Positions 8,479-57,432 of a stretch of DNA of 64,000 bases are shown in pieces; the first letter of the stretch is position 1; every line of letters begins with the position of its first letter. The notes below the pieces were generated by a model that was not told the origin of the DNA, searched no databases, and saw only the letters and a list, made by a program, of their open reading frames with translations. The stretch is from positions 1-64,000 of the forward strand of contig CAINDA010000034.1 of assembly GCA_903847205.1 (NCBI GenBank), in the 5' to 3' direction. The position numbers and the translations under genes are program-made. The DNA comes from an uncultured Bacteroidota bacterium (lineage in GTDB: Bacteria > Bacteroidota > Bacteroidia > 2-12-FULL-35-15).

Positions 8479-11400
8479 TTACTGTGTTTCTATTACCATA
8501 TAATTAAATGTGTGAGCAACTGCTGTCGGAGCAGCTCCAAAGCTAACTGTAAAATCATTAATAGTGGAGCTGACAAATACTTGAGCGGAAGTCATCTCAA
8601 AGGCTGATACCGCATCAGTTGGTGTAAGAATAACTATAGGGGCAACACTAAAGCTTTTATCGAAAGTGTAGGTTACGCTGCCAGCAGCAGCAGTTGGTGT
8701 AATAGAAATATGGCCCGCCATATCAGTACAATTTGTAATGGTATGTAATCCCGGGAAGGCATAAGTAACAGCGCTGGTAATAGTGGGAGCATTCGTCTGC
8801 TGGCTTTGTAAATGCCCGTCTTTAATGGCGAACTTAGCATTAGCAGCCAGTGAGGTTGTTCCGATACCAACATTGCCAGCTGCAAAATCGCCGTAAATTA
8901 ATGGAGGGTCTGTGCTGCTGTTAGCAATGTATAGTTTATTATCGCCTGTTTCGTTATACCCCGCATTATAACCAAGAAAAACATTACCGCTGCCGGTGGA
9001 ATTAGTATAGCCTGCATATCCACCTAATGCGGTATTATTATTTCCAATAGTGTTGGAAGAAAGTGCACCATAACCGTTGGCGGTATTTCCATTTCCTGCG
9101 GTGTTAACTTCAAGCACAGCTGCTCCCATAGCGGTATTGTAGTATCCTATAGTATTGCCTGCAAGTGCGGCATCTCCGTTGGCGGTATTTTCGTATCCTG
9201 TGGTATTGTCAAAAAGCGCACCTTGTCCGCTGGCGGTATTATTGTTTCCTGTGGTGTTTCTAAAAAGCGCATTACTTCCATTAGCTGTATTTCCCCATCC
9301 TGTGGTGCTGGAATAAAGTGCAGCATCTCCGATGGCGGTATTGGCATATCCCGTGGTGTTGGACTGGAGAGCTTGGCTTCCGTTGGCGGTATTGCCTCCT
9401 CCAGTAGTGGTGGGATTACCTGCTTGGTGCCCAAAAAAAGTATTAGCTAAAGTATTATCTATTCTTCCTGCGTTTTCATTATTAACTCTGAAATTAAGAG
9501 GTACGTTGTCAGTAGTACCAATAAAGTTGGTACCGTCAACAGTACCAGTGTTGCCAAGCAGACTCCAATCGTTACCGCCCGTGCCGCCAAGTGCAGCCCA
9601 TTTAGCTCCATCCCAGTAATAGTAACCGGGCACTACATCGTTGGGGAATGTGCCTGCAGCTGTGGTATTATATACTAATAAACTTATTACGTTACCTGAT
9701 GCAATGGTGGTGGCATCTGACTGGTCTGTTAAGGCAACTCTAGGGATTAGAACGCCCTTATCACTCGCAGTTAAATCCAGCAAAGCTGAAGCATTGGGTG
9801 AAGTTATTCCTACGCCGACATTTACAGCATCTGCTCCTGTTCCGCCAAGCACCATTGAGTTACTTGTACCCACTTGGGCGTTATAACCAATAGCAGTTGC
9901 ATTGGTTAAATTATTGGATAATACATTAGATGCAGAACCTATTGCAGTATTGTTGCTCCCTGTGGTATTGGATTGAAGCGCACTGGCTCCTACGGCGGTA
10001 TTGCCATCTCCCGAATTGGTGGTAAGTGCATTATAACCGCTGGCTGTATTGTACCTTCCTGAGTAATTTTGTTGAAGTGCGGCTAAGCCTATGGCGGTAT
10101 TACCATCTCCTGAGTGATTAATTTGAAGTGCACTCATTCCCACAGCTGTATTGTTGGATCCAGTAGTGGTGTACTGAAGAGCTGCAGCTCCAAGGGCGGT
10201 ATTATTAGCCGCAGTGTTGAGATCAAGGGCATCCCATCCAATGGCTGTATTGTAGTTTCCATTGACATTGGAATGAAGAGCCTCCCAACCGACGGCTGTA
10301 TTTTCGTAACCAATAGTGTTGGAAAAAAGTGCCTGATAACCATTGGCGGTATTGTTGAATCCTGCAGTGTTGATATTTCCGGCTTGGTATCCCAAAAATG
10401 TATTAGCTAGGGTATTGTCAATTCTTCCTGCTTTTTCATTATTTACTCTGATGTTAAAAGGAATGTTATCTATTGTGCCAATAAAGTTGGTACCGTCAAC
10501 TGTGCCTGAATTTCCGAGGAGCGCCCATGCGTTCAATGCACCATCAGCACCTGTTGAACCTGTCGCACCTATTGAGCCTGTATTTCCAGTTGAACCTGTG
10601 CTTCCAGTTGAACCAGAGCTTCCAGTAGAACCTTTACTGCCGGTGTTTCCTGTAGAACCGGGACTTCCCGTTGAACCGGTATTGCCTGTTAAGCCTGTGC
10701 TTCCTGTTAAGCCTGTATCGCCTGTTGCACCAGTACTTCCAGTAGTACCTGCACTGCCTGTTAGTCCAGTATTTCCGGTTGAACCAGTACTGCCAATAGA
10801 ACCAGTACCTCCTGTATAACCGGTTGATCCTGTACTTCCAGTACTTCCTTTATCGCCAGTACCTCCTGTAGAACCAGTTGAGCCTGTACTGCCTGTGTTT
10901 CCGGTATAACCAGTGCTTCCCGTTGAACCCATGCTACCAGTTGATCCAGTACTTCCTGTTGAACCAGTGTTGCCTGTAGAACCAGTAATTCCAGTATCAC
11001 CAGTTGAGCCTGTACTGCCGGTGTTTCCAGTAGTTCCAGAACTTCCTGTAGAACCAGTACTTCCTGTATCACCAGTTATGCCAGTACTTCCTGCGCTTCC
11101 GCTAGAACCAGTACTTCCTGTTGATCCTGTGCTGCCAGTTGAACCAGAGCTTCCAGTAGAACCTGTACTGCCGGTGTTTCCAGTAGCTCCGGAACTTCCT
11201 GTAGAACCAGTACTTCCAATATCACCTGTAGAACCAGTGCTTCCTGTGTCACCTGTTGAACCTGTAGCACCAATATCACCTGTTGATCCTGTACTTCCTG
11301 CAGAGCCCGTGCTTCCTGTGTCACCTGATGAACCTGTACCACCAATATCACCTGTTGATCCAGTACTTCCCGTTGAGCCAGTGCTTCCTGTGTCACCTGT

Positions 11401-12360
11401 TGAACCTGTACCACCAATATCACCTGTTGATCCTGTACTTCCCATAGAGCCAGTGCTTCCTGTATCACCTGTAGAGCCAGTGTTTCCTGAATATCCCGTT
11501 GAACCAGCACTTCCTGTGTCACCTGTTGAACCAGTACTTCCTGTACTTCCATTATCACCTGTTGAGCCAGTGTTTCCATTATCACCAGTTAAGCCTGTGT
11601 TTCCTGTATCGCCGGTAGTGCCCGTGCTTCCATTATCACCAGTTGAGCCTGTGCTTCCTGAATATCCTGTTGAACCAGTACTTCCTGTATCACCTGTAGA
11701 GCCAATCTTTCCTGTATCACCGGTTGAACCTACACTTCCTGTATTACCAGCCGAACCTGTACTTCCTGTATCACCTATTGATCCGGTAATTCCGTTAAGT
11801 CCATCCGCCCCAGATGCGCCGGTAGCTCCTGTTGAACCTGCGCCTGTAACGCCGGTTGCACCGGGTGTTCCTGAATTTAAAGAATAAAGTGCAGTATCGG
11901 ATTTTAAGGCATAAAAAGCATAAGGAACTGCCATAAATTGCTGATTGCCCATGAGTTTATATTCACCGCTGTTTTTAATATCTATTTCAACTTTTAAAAA
12001 TTGATTGGCGGCTGACCAAGGAATATCAATCATGTGTTGATACTGCCCAGCATTAGTAAAATTACCGTCACCAATAATTAATGAAAATAATCCATATTGA
12101 TCGGTATTTGCAGTATGTGTTTCCTGATATAGAACAGAACCTGCCGCACTTCCGCTTAATATTGAAAAACGAACAGCAATAGTTTTATTGCTGATAGCTT
12201 GTCCAGTATTATCCATACCCACAACTTCAATTCCATTTTCATCAACAGCTACCGCTTGGTAATTTATTCCCCTTAATTGCGCGAACATTACTGCTCCTCC
12301 GCCTCTCCATAAGAGGGGAGTCAAGAATAGTATGGCTATGATGATGATTGTTTTATTCAT
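8479..12360 (-). CDS. Collagen-like, head-repeat surface adhesin
   Basis: 1,293 residues. Domains: signal peptide (1-28); a conserved Bacteroidota N-terminal beta domain (about 29-160, [13 protein letters not shown] to [10 protein letters not shown]); a collagen-like G-x-y stretch (about 166-608) dominated by GSTG, GDTG and GNTG triplets; two blocks of YadA-head-like repeats (NTAxGxxAL and NTANGxxAL, about 660-830 and 960-1150), each led by an [18 protein letters not shown] segment; and a C-terminal beta domain ending in FNYMVIETQ. Such proteins form trimeric, fibre-like surface structures; trimerisation here is inferred. There is no S74 chaperone and no T9SS signature. It starts 9 bases after the outer-membrane barrel gene at 12370-13329, which points to co-expression. 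The signal peptide includes the repeat-derived PLLWRGGG segment. Confidence 0.88.
10535..11865 (-). repeat. Collagen-like 9-bp triplet repeat region
   Basis: About 1.3 kb of imperfect 9-bp repeats encoding roughly 147 Gly-x-y triplets, mostly G-S-T, G-D-T and G-N-T with occasional G-A-T and G-Y-T. Larger blocks of 54 to 100 bases recur (for example around 11220-11480), indicating expansion by slippage or unequal crossing-over. The repeat leaves long open frames on the opposite strand (Pro-Val-Glu-Pro type), which are by-products. This is the stretch of the window most prone to length change and mis-assembly. Confidence 0.9.
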
Positions 12361-20072: not shown

Positions 20073-20618
20073 ATTGTTTATGTTTTTAAGGTTATAATTA
20101 TATTTATAACGTTAGAAAGAATAAAGGATACAAAAAAAATTCTGGCCCTAGGAAGGGCGAAATACATTTACTCTTAATTCATTGTGCAAAAATCAGCATT
20201 CCCAAAGACAAAGTGCTGTTCCTTTAGCTTTTTCAATGTCAAATTATAAGTGAATACTATCAATTGCTAATGATTTCCACCCAAGAATTAACATTTCTGA
20301 TATTATACAATAATACTTCATTAAATCCTCATCATAAAAATTACTTATTACTAAAGTTTCTGCAAAGCAATTCTTCCAAAAAATATATAATCCAAGATAA
20401 TCCTCTTAATCATCTATCCTTAAATTATTCATCGCCCGTTATATAATAATACAATTTCAATTTATATAATAGTATCCGGAATCCCTTGCTGCATAAACTC
20501 CTTCCTATGAAGTCTATAATTAAGTCAATTGTTAAAAATTGCAAAATGATTATGCTTATAACAATATTATTAATGCTCTGCAGTTATTAAATCAATTAAG
20601 CTGTTAAACCAGTAACAC
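20073..20618. other. AT-rich non-coding stretch
   Basis: About 550 AT-rich bases between the divergent genes at 19488-20072 (-) and 20974-21960 (+). A 60-codon open frame at 20264-20446 (+) has no start context or recognisable protein features. I see no RNA gene here. The tandem array described separately follows directly. Confidence 0.5.
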
Positions 20619-20932
20619 ATCAAATGAACTCATTTATAGCATTCCGTAAATGCGGAGTGCAGCAAATGAACTCATTTATACCACTCCGTAAATGTGGAAC
20701 ACTTCAAATGATTTTGTTTATATCATTACGCAAATGCAGAACGAATCAACTGAAATAATTTATATCGGTACGCAAATACGGAACGCATCAAATGAACTCG
20801 ATTATACTGCTCCGCAAATACGGAACGCATCAAATGAACTCATTTATATCATTCCGCAAATACGGAACGTATCAAGTGAACTAATTTATATCATTCCTCG
20901 TATACGGAACGTATAAAATGAATTCATTTAAT
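20619..20932. repeat. 42-bp tandem array with two alternating dyads per unit
   Basis: Units start at 20619, 20661, 20703, 20745, 20787, 20829 and 20871, exactly 42 bases apart, with a partial eighth at 20913. A typical unit contains dyad A, AAATGAACTCATTT (6-bp arms), and dyad B, TTCCGCAAATACGGAA (5-bp arms). Their centres are 21 bp apart, so dyads alternate every 21 bp, about two helical turns. Copies differ by several bases but dyads are largely kept; the last A copy is AAATGAATTCATTT, a perfect palindrome. The array ends about 40 bases before the ATG at 20974. It looks like an operator or protein-binding array; being transcribed into a hairpin series is the alternative. Confidence 0.85.
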
Positions 20933-20973
20933 AAATTATTTAAATTATCAATTAACTTAAACTTATAAAAACT

Positions 20974-21960
20974 ATGAGTGCTCTGGGAACATGGACTATC
21001 ACAAGCAATCCTTTTTTGGCAGCTGCAAGAGGAAGTTATATAAATACAAAAAAAATGAGCAATTCTTATATGGCTAAGCTAAAAGTTAATGACGCAGACC
21101 CTGATATTGCTTTGATTGAAACCAGCTTCGAGCCTTTTGATACAGCATTGGATGAAATCTATGCTAAATATACAGCGCAGAAAGGTGCTCAAAATGGCGC
21201 AGGCACAGCATTTGCACAAAAATTGGGAGAAATGACTGATAAATTAACACTCTGGGATTCCCGCGCCTGCCTTATTTATCCGCCTGATACAGCATCAGGG
21301 CCATATAAGGCTTTATTTCCGAATGGTCATTCGCGGTTTCAAACCGGAAGTCAGGACAGCAAAATTACCGCGGTAAATGTATTAATTGAAACACTGGATA
21401 AAGCTATTGCAGCTGATGCCGCCAATGCTCCCGCTTTAACTGCTTTAAAAGCCAGTGTCAGCTCTTACTATATTGATTTAATAAAGGCTTTCGATGATAA
21501 AAACAATGCCCAAAGTATTACCGGCATCTATAGCGATGCCTGTGCAAAAGCTGCAACTGCTGTTTGCGAACAAATGTATTTTGGTTTGGCGCAGCTGATA
21601 ATGAAGTTTTATAAAACGCCGGAAAAATTAGGAAATTATTTTGATGAAACTGTTATTAAAACTCATAAACAGACGAGCTTTAAACGCAGCCCCAAACCGG
21701 GATTGAAATATACAATTGCTGAACGAACATTAACTGCCGATAGCGAGATACGCATTAAGAATACAGGCCCGATGCTTCTTCGTTTTTATCTGGCTAAAGT
21801 AAAAGATGCAGCTATAGGAAATGTTTTTCTTGAAGTCCCTGCCGGCACCGACAGCATATTTACATCCTCGCAATTAGGCGATGCTGAAAACAATCATTTT
21901 ATAATGGTGACAAATCCGGATGAACTGCAGACTGGCTCTTTTGTGATAAAACTGCTGTAG
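20974..21960 (+). CDS. Orphan protein of unknown function downstream of the 42-bp array
   Basis: 328 residues, no signal peptide and no membrane segment, so probably cytoplasmic. Residues about 40-225 look all-helical with many Ala/Lys and conserved-looking bits (FPNGHSRFQTGSQDSKITAVNVL, VSSYYIDLIKAF, CEQMYFGLAQLIMKFY). Residues about 245-328 look beta-rich (KYTIAERTLTADSEIRIKNTG to TGSFVIKLL). I do not recognise the family. The last 32 coding bases plus 9 following bases (21929-21969) recur exactly at 28377-28417. The array immediately upstream suggests unusual regulation. It is the only plus-strand gene between 8.3 and 54.9 kb. Confidence 0.75.
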   Translation: MSALGTWTITSNPFLAAARGSYINTKKMSNSYMAKLKVNDADPDIALIETSFEPFDTALDEIYAKYTAQKGAQNGAGTAFAQKLGEMTDKLTLWDSRACLIYPPDTASGPYKALFPNGHSRFQTGSQDSKITAVNVLIETLDKAIAADAANAPALTALKASVSSYYIDLIKAFDDKNNAQSITGIYSDACAKAATAVCEQMYFGLAQLIMKFYKTPEKLGNYFDETVIKTHKQTSFKRSPKPGLKYTIAERTLTADSEIRIKNTGPMLLRFYLAKVKDAAIGNVFLEVPAGTDSIFTSSQLGDAENNHFIMVTNPDELQTGSFVIKLL

Positions 21961-22126: not shown

Positions 22127-24448
22127 CTATTCACTCTTCTGAGCAGTCACATTCCGCTGCTGAATTGCTTCCATTTCATTTTCAAGTTTGATAAATTTGT
22201 TTTTAAAACTATCAACTTCCGTTTTTAGTTTTTCAAGTTCGTTGGTTTTCAAAGTCAATTCATCCTGCGCAGACTTTAGCTCTGCTGTGCGTTTTTCTAA
22301 TGCCTGTATGGCAATCATATTTACTCCGTCAATATCACTTGTTGTAATGGTAGTATCATTGCCGTTGCCGCTTAATTTAAAAGCAGCATAAAAATCCTGA
22401 GCCATCGGACCAATATGATGATTGGTTTTATCCTGAGCTTTATAATTCCATTGAGTAACAGGCATGTCTTTTATTTTTAATAAAATCTCTTCAGGATTAA
22501 GAGTGATGAAATTTTCTTTCTTGCGTTTGTCAGAAACGCTTGCCCAAGCTCCGGCACCAGGTGCAAGAGTAACACCGGCTGTAAGACCTGAGTTTGAGAA
22601 TAACCGGTAGCCTCCTGCAAAACGCATGGTCATTTCATAAGATGTGCTTGAATTGGTAGTGGTGGAAGTGGAATTATCACCTAAAATGAATGCGCCAGTC
22701 TCAAAATTAGTTGATACATAACTTCCAATCGCAACATCACCGTCACTGGCATTGGCAGTGGTCTGGTATCCCAAAGCAATAGAACTATGTCCAATAGCAG
22801 TGGTCTGGTCTCCCATCGCAATTGAAGCGTATCCGTAAGCGGTGTTTCTCGTTCCCATCGCAATGGAAGCATCCCCGCTGGCGGTTGTGCTGTATCCAGT
22901 TGCGGTGGAATAATAGCCAAGAGAGGCATCATCCCAAGCAGTGCCAGTCACAACCCCTGCTCTGAAAGCAGCCTTGCACGGATAGAACATCATACGGCTG
23001 CCCGCACCAAGATCAGCTATATGAGAAAGAGGATCAAAATGTCCGGAAAATAAAACACCATTTGTACTTTGACCAACGTCAACATGAAGGGCTGCGGAAG
23101 CGTCTGGTGTAATACCAATGCCCACATTTCCGCTGCTAGTGATTCTCATTCTCTCTAATTTATTTGTGCCGAATATAAAATCTTTGGCATCGGTAGTTCC
23201 AACATAATTTTGTCCCGCTCCAATTGCAGTACCAATAGCAGAGGTTGAAGGTGTAGTTCCTGCATTACCGATTAGCGTCCAGCCAATGTTTGGTGTCGTC
23301 CATGTTGGTGCGCCTGCTCCCGAAGAAGTAAGTACTTGCCCGGCTGTTCCTGCTGCTGTTGAAGCGTGCTGCGTTCCGTTTGAATATATCACTGAACCTG
23401 CACTTCCAACTGTTGAAATATTTGTACCGCCGTTGGCAATAGGTAATATGCCCGTAACTTTAGCTGTAAGATCAATTGTTCCATTTGTAATATCAGCATT
23501 TACAACAGCCCCCCATGAAGGATTCCCTGAAGCATTACCATGCAAAATGCTGTTAACGTTTCCCTGATTTTGAAATAAAGCTGAGGCAAGTGTCGGAGCA
23601 AAAAAGGCTGGCGCTGCTGATGCATTGGTATTATTACCATAAATTGTATAAGCTGCTGCATTTGAAATTGTGAATGACAAAGCTGGTGTTGTGGCAGCCG
23701 TTGTTACCGATGCAGTGAATAACGGAGCTAAATTTCCTGAACTAAACGAAGTAACTGTTCCGCCGCTTGCGACTGTCTGCCAGCTTCCCTGTCCATTGAT
23801 ATCTGAAGTAAGCACTTTACCAGCCCCCTGGCTGCCATCTACTATTTTTATTGTTGCTCCTAAAGCTCCCTGCACTTCAAGTTTTGCTGACGGAGCAATT
23901 GTGTTGATGCCCACATTCCCGGATGAAAAATCGCCATATATTAATGGCGGGTTAGTGCTGCTGTTAGCGATGTATAGTTTATTAGAGCCAATTTCATTAT
24001 AGCCTGCGTTATATCCAAGAAAAACATTACCGCTGCCAATAGTATTATTAAGACCAGCGGAAGCACCAAATGCGGTATTGTGACTTCCATTAATGTTGGA
24101 AAGCGCTCCCTCCCCGCCAGCTGTATTTCCATCTCCTGTTTGATTGGATGCCAGCGCCCCTCTGCCATCTGCAGTATTTGATTTTCCTGTAGTGTTGGAA
24201 GTAAGTGAATAGGCTCCATTGGCTGTATTAAATCTTCCTGTGGTATTAACATTAAGCGTAAATGCACCGCTGGCTAAATTGTCAATTCCATTTGTGTTGA
24301 CTGCAAGTGCGCCAAACCCATTGGCGGTGTTGCCGGTTCCAATCGTGTTTGCATTTCCGGCTTGATAACCAAAAAAAGTATTAGCAATAGCCGGATCCCA
24401 ATCTATCCTTCCAGCTTTTTGGTTATAAACTTTTATATTAAAAGGCAT
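22127..24448 (-). CDS. Giant adhesin, C-terminal fragment with Peptidase_S74 domain (frame 3)
   Basis: 773 codons open from about 24448. The first ATG is inside NMPFNIKV of head module 4 and is probably not a natural start. After module 4 comes a Gly/Ala/Ser/Thr-rich linker (about 215-430), another head-like block (residues about 510-600) and MRFAGGYRLFSNSG, which leads into a Peptidase_S74 intramolecular chaperone domain: VSDKRKKENF with the candidate catalytic Ser codon at 22532-22534, then WNYK and HIGPMAQDFYAAF. A long coiled coil (LEKRTAELKSAQDELTLKTNELEKL) ends it. In phage tail fibres this domain trimerises the protein and cuts itself off; the same is inferred here. Confidence 0.8.
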   Translation of the reverse strand: MPFNIKVYNQKAGRIDWDPAIANTFFGYQAGNANTIGTGNTANGFGALAVNTNGIDNLASGAFTLNVNTTGRFNTANGAYSLTSNTTGKSNTADGRGALASNQTGDGNTAGGEGALSNINGSHNTAFGASAGLNNTIGSGNVFLGYNAGYNEIGSNKLYIANSSTNPPLIYGDFSSGNVGINTIAPSAKLEVQGALGATIKIVDGSQGAGKVLTSDINGQGSWQTVASGGTVTSFSSGNLAPLFTASVTTAATTPALSFTISNAAAYTIYGNNTNASAAPAFFAPTLASALFQNQGNVNSILHGNASGNPSWGAVVNADITNGTIDLTAKVTGILPIANGGTNISTVGSAGSVIYSNGTQHASTAAGTAGQVLTSSGAGAPTWTTPNIGWTLIGNAGTTPSTSAIGTAIGAGQNYVGTTDAKDFIFGTNKLERMRITSSGNVGIGITPDASAALHVDVGQSTNGVLFSGHFDPLSHIADLGAGSRMMFYPCKAAFRAGVVTGTAWDDASLGYYSTATGYSTTASGDASIAMGTRNTAYGYASIAMGDQTTAIGHSSIALGYQTTANASDGDVAIGSYVSTNFETGAFILGDNSTSTTTNSSTSYEMTMRFAGGYRLFSNSGLTAGVTLAPGAGAWASVSDKRKKENFITLNPEEILLKIKDMPVTQWNYKAQDKTNHHIGPMAQDFYAAFKLSGNGNDTTITTSDIDGVNMIAIQALEKRTAELKSAQDELTLKTNELEKLKTEVDSFKNKFIKLENEMEAIQQRNVTAQKSE

Positions 24449-57210: not shown

Positions 57211-57432
57211 GGCTTAATCCAAACGTGCGTGGTCATGTTGAGCATGTCGAAACATGTGAGATGGCTTCCCACACTCTTCGACAAGCTCAGAGTGACAGCC
57301 GCATTTCGACATTTTGCCCCTTCGCAAGGCTTAATCCAAGCGTGCGTGGTCATGTTGAGCATGTCGAAACATGTGAGATGGCTTCCCACACTCTTCGACA
57401 AGCTCAGAGTGACAGCCGCATTTCGACATTTT
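57211..57432. repeat. Duplicated dispersed palindromic element (about 105 bp x2)
   Basis: Two copies, 57211-57315 and 57328-57432, start 117 bases apart and are nearly identical (a single A/G change is visible early). They contain GTTGAGCATGTCGAAACATG and CTTCGACAAGCTCAGAGTG, words that can pair and that also occur at 22030-22078. The element lies in the 360-base convergent gap between the protease and recQ; nothing else is seen in that gap. Open frames on both strands reflect the repeat. Confidence 0.85.

Follow-up and report, generated by a model that had tools for sequence, protein, structure and literature searches.

Tandem arrays of alternating dyads with fixed 21-bp geometry and changing sequence form gene cassettes with a protein family of some freshwater Bacteroidetes

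The tandem array upstream of the gene at 20974 in the window (here the whole stretch of 64,000 nucleotides of an uncultured Bacteroidota contig that was analysed) is one of the defining elements of a gene cassette and no mere regulatory oddity of one locus, because nearly every member of this gene's family with enough upstream sequence has an array of its own. From member to member the geometry of the array is kept and its letters change, and the N-terminus of the protein covaries with the array. We consider it an even bet that each array is bound cooperatively, on a single face of the DNA, by the protein of the same cassette, which probably regulates its own gene, and that the paralogous pairs are kept orthogonal; both the binding and the function are what we infer. 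The features of the window that the analysis refers to are the following.

20614..20930, no strand assigned: tandem array of 7.5 units of 42 bp, in each of which two dyads alternate (TRF; register; reflection test, p = 0.004).
20621..20636, no strand assigned: first copy of dyad A (7-2-7), repeated each 42 bp with centres from 20628.5 to 20922.5, 8 copies (direct reading; pooled 7-2-7 geometry).
20642..20657, no strand assigned: first copy of dyad B, repeated each 42 bp with centres from 20649.5 to 20901.5, 7 copies (direct reading; pooled geometry).
20915..20930, no strand assigned: final copy of dyad A, at the end of the array, with the perfect palindrome AAATGAATTCATTT at its core (direct reading).
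20931..20973, + strand: 43-bp gap from the array to the start codon (direct reading).
20974..21960, + strand: cassette gene, 328 aa, without known domain; family of 118 collected members.
20974..21033, + strand: codons 1-20, the proposed specificity segment, whose conservation tracks array identity most clearly (covariation comparisons).
21010..21660, + strand: helical region, residues 13-229, with long helices at 43-85 and 149-211 (AlphaFold2 model).
21676..21957, + strand: C-terminal beta region, residues 235-328 (model; Foldseek matches to PirA-like and cupin domains).

The array of the window is recognized by TRF with 78% matches and a score of 333. With its units in register, every unit consists of two alternating 16-bp dyads, A and B, and every dyad B centre is 21 bp from the adjoining A centres; as an example, in the unit at 20830 dyad A (AAATGAACTCATTT) is centred at 20838.5 and dyad B (TTCCGCAAATACGGAA) at 20859.5, with a spacing of 21.0 bp. 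By reflection 62% of the positions of the unit are complementary, as compared to a mean best value of 48% in shuffled units (p = 0.004). A first-pass annotation had already described the 42-bp units with their two dyads 21 bp apart, the perfect palindrome in the last A dyad, and the end of the array about 40 bases before the ATG, and each of these descriptions was confirmed, the distance to the ATG being 43 bp. It had also set the array apart from CRISPRs and from iteron origins, having seen neither spacers nor a rep gene: the units indeed run head to tail without spacers, and the adjacent protein has no Rep match in Pfam, NCBIfam or PHROG. No promoter could be recognized by eye in the 43-bp gap.

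The AlphaFold2 model of the window protein has a mean pLDDT of 90.1, with low confidence at residues 1-9; the best matches in structure searches were generic (long helical shafts, PirA-like, cupin, fn3), and no function was named by them. The window protein alone has no match in Pfam or NCBIfam, and no convincing match was obtained for a set of 27 family members in Pfam, PHROGs or PADLOC. There was no match to the window protein in plasmid or phage records, and none was confirmed in viral contigs. No known DNA-binding domain was found in it, and this, like the low model confidence in part of the N-terminal segment, counts against a DNA-binding reading. The description of the gene as an orphan of no recognized family holds insofar as Pfam and NCBIfam are concerned, but the gene is not an orphan, as it has paralogues and a wider family. 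About 12 paralogous matches, some of them fragments, are present in its own genome, and the family occurs in 8 of 35 genus mates of the window genome; in a sample of 395 genomes from the class, a profile search found it in 22. The 118 members were collected from the own genome, the genus and the class, with further searches confined to the positive lineages. Scans of named organisms yielded none with the own-genome query and four loci, in uncultured Bacteroidetes MAGs, with a query from a genus mate; the hosts of the cassettes are some freshwater Bacteroidetes. Some relatives match the family profile at residues 1-220 only: the proteins at L067, L098 and L069 match just the helical N-terminal 220 profile positions, with C-termini that are other or absent, and two of the three still sit behind 41-bp arrays.

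An upstream tandem array was detected in 96 of the 118 members, and several of the remainder are cut by contig ends. A test set beforehand concerned the period in homologous loci: 94 of these 96 arrays keep 41 or 42 bp (77 have a period of 42, 17 of 41, and 2 another value). In the 455 kb around family genes, in which arrays of at least 2.5 copies were counted, 23 of the 24 arrays with a period of 41-42 or 83-84 bp have a family gene downstream. A single 41-42-bp array in these flanks, L099:1-134 (which runs into L205), does not adjoin a family gene; it is about 230 bp before the gene of a subtilase-like secreted protein. Broken and duplicated cassettes occur among the loci; the copies at L106, L120 and L141 carry premature stop codons and are decaying, with the array kept in at least L106 and L120. 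Conserved neighbour genes were sought in 41 loci, and no partner, regulator or motor ATPase/GTPase gene was found; the only recurring neighbours are clusters of secreted or surface-like proteins. In the window such secreted-repeat or S74/YadA-like surface proteins are encoded at 22127-24448, and similar ORFs lie elsewhere within a few kb of family genes.

The units of different members have approximately chance similarity (about 0.41) unless their proteins are about 80% identical or more. A symmetry threshold is passed by 62% of the 42-bp arrays as compared to 11% of shuffles; 29 of the 77 arrays failed it, which is a point against the binding reading we prefer. In 48 pooled arrays complementarity is 33% at ±0.5, 68-84% from ±1.5 to ±7.5 and 29-45% beyond, whereas shuffled units that pass the same threshold have a flat profile at about 60%. 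From this profile it can be seen that the unit is made of two sites of 7-2-7 form, spaced 21 bp from centre to centre, with 7-bp half-sites, a free 2-bp centre and 5-bp linkers; a weak strand-symmetric consensus places A at -1.5, T at +1.5 and G/C at ±10.5. Within arrays the match to the unit consensus is 0.92-0.96 at dyad positions ±1.5 to ±7.5, against 0.85-0.90 in the linkers and 0.89 at the centre, so that the comparison of dyad and linker conservation, suggested as a check when the array was first annotated, came out in favour of the dyads. Within one array the half-sites of A are unlike those of B (1.78 of 7 positions matching, versus 2.06 between arrays), which is odd if a single protein reads both sites. 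That the array is translated into heptads (21 bp corresponding to 7 codons) was ruled out, as the 41-bp arrays break the frame, and no clear signal emerged when array units were tested for pairing with the region around the translation start (complement p = 0.06).

The protein N-terminus and the array change together. In the orthologues L072/L119 the 5' flanks are nearly the same and the proteins are 90% identical, but the array letters differ: the aligned dyads carry double compensatory changes (T-A to C-G, C-G to T-A, A-T to C-G), and 7 of 17 aligned residues are changed within the first 20, versus 0 in the same-array pairs compared alongside. The pair L080/L061 follows this pattern, its proteins being 94% identical past residue 40 and about 60% identical over the first 22. 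The array-gene gap is similar in L072/L119, with some divergence, and has diverged further in L080/L061. In a set of 21 close pairs, the conservation of residues 1-20 relative to the rest averages +0.13 with matching arrays and −0.15 with differing arrays, a difference of 0.28; the next largest segment difference, at residues 101-120, is 0.17 and in the opposite direction. The value for residues 1-22 minus the rest is positive in 8 of 8 same-array pairs, and zero or negative in 12 of 13 different-array pairs. A rank test on the 21 pairs gives p = 1e-5, which overstates the strength of the relationship because the pairs share members (there are about 3 same-array clusters) and are not independent. 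Moreover, codons 1-20 adjoin the array, so that linked tract replacement could yield part of the covariation. On the whole the covariation points to the adjacent gene's own product as the likely reader of the array. Cooperative binding by two regulators, or by one protein with two modes, had been proposed for the array: cooperativity on one face fits the wider data, but two separate regulators are not what the covariation points to.

One could suppose instead that the arrays are satellite-like DNA with no sequence-specific function, produced by mutational copying of 21-bp or 42-bp steps and tolerated by the gene family, as their very fast sequence turnover, the many copies genome-wide and the broken and duplicated cassettes might suggest. 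We regard this as very improbable, since it leaves unexplained the conserved dyad geometry and the compensatory changes, and also the near-universal place of the arrays 5' of family genes and the N-terminal covariation.

The arrays fit DNA sites better than RNA hairpins. Arm mismatches of the G-T and A-C types are about equal in number (32 versus 35 in consensus units, 69 versus 63 in individual units); pairs at ±1.5 are kept at 70%, which argues against an RNA hairpin because a hairpin is unable to close on two bases; base composition about the dyad axes is roughly symmetric between strands; and the lattice periods are even numbers of B-DNA turns. Taken together these four observations favour double-stranded DNA sites, and the first two weaken the RNA hairpin reading in particular. 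Against a role as DNA alone, at least some arrays are probably transcribed, judging from the sequences 5' of them: a boxA-like GTTCTTTGA occurs 19 times, versus 0.35 expected and 0 on the opposite strand. Some copies are inside arrays; at about ten separate loci it precedes the array by some 40-60 bp, and in some loci a promoter-like TAnnTTTG (Bacteroidetes-type) lies just ahead of it. The main rival to the DNA-array reading is that the array acts as RNA, either as a transcribed leader or as a separate repeat RNA, whose units bind the encoded protein in a type III toxin-antitoxin-like manner. The position directly 5' of the gene, these boxA-like and promoter-like sequences, and the covariation of the N-terminus with the array are all in its favour; it is nevertheless unlikely, as the arms have no excess of G-T over A-C, the ±1.5 pairs are kept even though in a hairpin they would belong to a loop that is too tight to form, the two strands are alike in composition, a spacing in multiples of 21 bp suits the turns of B-DNA and has no obvious reason in RNA, and the protein lacks a ToxN/AbiQ-like match (none for the 27 family members in Pfam or PADLOC). 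In type III systems (ToxIN, CptIN, TenpIN) the gene of the interacting protein comes right after a series of short tandem repeats (PMC8860590, PMC4627078). The cassettes resemble them in this placement, but differ in a protein of about 330 residues with a helical plus beta model and in repeats that look like DNA dyads.

According to the mechanism that we propose for DNA binding, the cassette protein would occupy its own array cooperatively as dimers, one per dyad, all on the same side of the helix and with array specificity determined in part by residues 1-20, and a short nucleoprotein filament would form over the cassette's own leader or promoter and regulate its gene. Many paralogous cassettes per genome would create pressure against cross-reaction between pairs, and under such pressure the array letters and the N-terminus would be expected to diverge together with the geometry fixed. 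Binding by the cassette's own product, dimers, filament, autoregulation and orthogonality are all steps that we infer.

Arrays on the same lattice (periods of 20-21, 41-42, 62-63, 83-84 or 104-105 bp) extend beyond the window family. In 800 kb sampled from the own genome there are 15 intergenic lattice arrays, or by extrapolation about 100 per genome; in 800 kb of two family-negative genus mates there are 2, both at one locus. The first arrays of this sort to be examined lay near gene starts. Those at L167 and L169 belong to L036-type cassettes (about 90% DNA identity) from which the gene is deleted, and are relics; L169 still ends in the C-terminus of the window family. The proteins at L177 and L201 represent two further families, small, with helical N-terminal parts and fn3-type C-termini, whose homologues have upstream arrays that are mostly of 21-bp units or multiples. 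These 21-bp arrays are mostly without dyads, another point against our preferred reading. The two sister families share the C-terminal fn3 region, and no sequence homology was found between the window family and either of them. The L201 family occurs in eight genomes of the genus, all among the nine that bear the window family, a co-occurrence that could be explained by shared ancestry of those species. A small LuxR/GerE-type protein, rare in the genus, is encoded at L201:1621-1908, across the array from the L201-family gene; a LuxR-type regulator as general array reader was ruled out, as it is not expanded in array-bearing genomes. At L188:6067-6477 two adjoining arrays (20 bp x 12, then 41 bp x 3.8) lie between divergent genes, one of which encodes a DUF5677 protein.

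These wider arrays also bear on the possibility that ordinary transcription factors, encoded elsewhere and not the same for A and B, use the arrays as clusters of operators. A 16-bp 7-2-7 dyad has typical operator geometry, the A and B half-sites differ within each array, and arrays are found upstream of genes outside the three families. We judge this improbable all the same: each of the roughly 100 extrapolated arrays would need one or two factors of its own, there is no conserved regulator neighbour, the single LuxR-like neighbour just described is not expanded in array-bearing genomes, the N-terminal covariation is left unexplained, and the non-family arrays at L167 and L169 are relics of a family cassette.

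Returning to binding by the cassette's own protein, several known systems offer a comparison. Iteron arrays are direct repeats of plasmid origins, about two helical turns apart, with a system-specific sequence, adjoining the gene of the Rep protein that binds them. The cassette dyads are also spaced by about two helical turns (21 bp), beside a gene and with array-specific letters, but the cassettes have no Rep-like protein or replication genes, are chromosomal with many per genome, and have alternating dyads in a 42-bp unit. In ParR/parC and TubR/tubC a protein assembles cooperatively on tandem centromere-like sites near its own promoter; the cassettes likewise have tandem sites near the protein's own gene, and cooperative assembly is proposed for them, but no ParM, TubZ or other motor gene is conserved beside them in the 41 loci, and the repeat length differs. 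ARG boxes, to which ArgR binds, come as two dyads of 18 bp on the same side of the DNA, 21 bp from centre to centre. This spacing is that of the cassette dyads, but ArgR has just a pair of similar boxes, whereas the cassettes have up to 12 units, dissimilar A and B, and no ArgR. By analogy, the cassette would work like iteron/Rep or centromere-array/adaptor pairs, but it does not seem to be a member of the iteron, partition or type III systems, since no Rep, no partition motor and no toxin fold were found.

No matching description was found in the open-licence PMC literature, and an earlier one may exist elsewhere. The data suggest that the cassettes make up a large group of matched pairs of protein and DNA that has gone unrecognised. 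That they form a previously undescribed class, in which several small helical plus beta-sandwich families have private 21-bp-lattice arrays and the N-terminus and array co-evolve under selection for orthogonality with the geometry alone conserved, has in our estimate slightly less than an even chance. If true, one bacterial genome would hold many parallel, naturally orthogonal protein-DNA pairs of fixed geometry and free sequence: a natural data set for the evolution of DNA specificity, possibly a new mode of DNA binding determined by an N-terminal segment of 20 residues, and an initial way into large Bacteroidetes protein families without assigned function.

Two other repeats were seen in the window. 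The gene at 8479-12360 encodes a 1293-aa protein with collagen repeats, whose coding repeats are 18 to 72 bp long, and a dispersed-repeat-like element at 57211-57432 consists of two nearly identical 117-bp copies with 99% matches.
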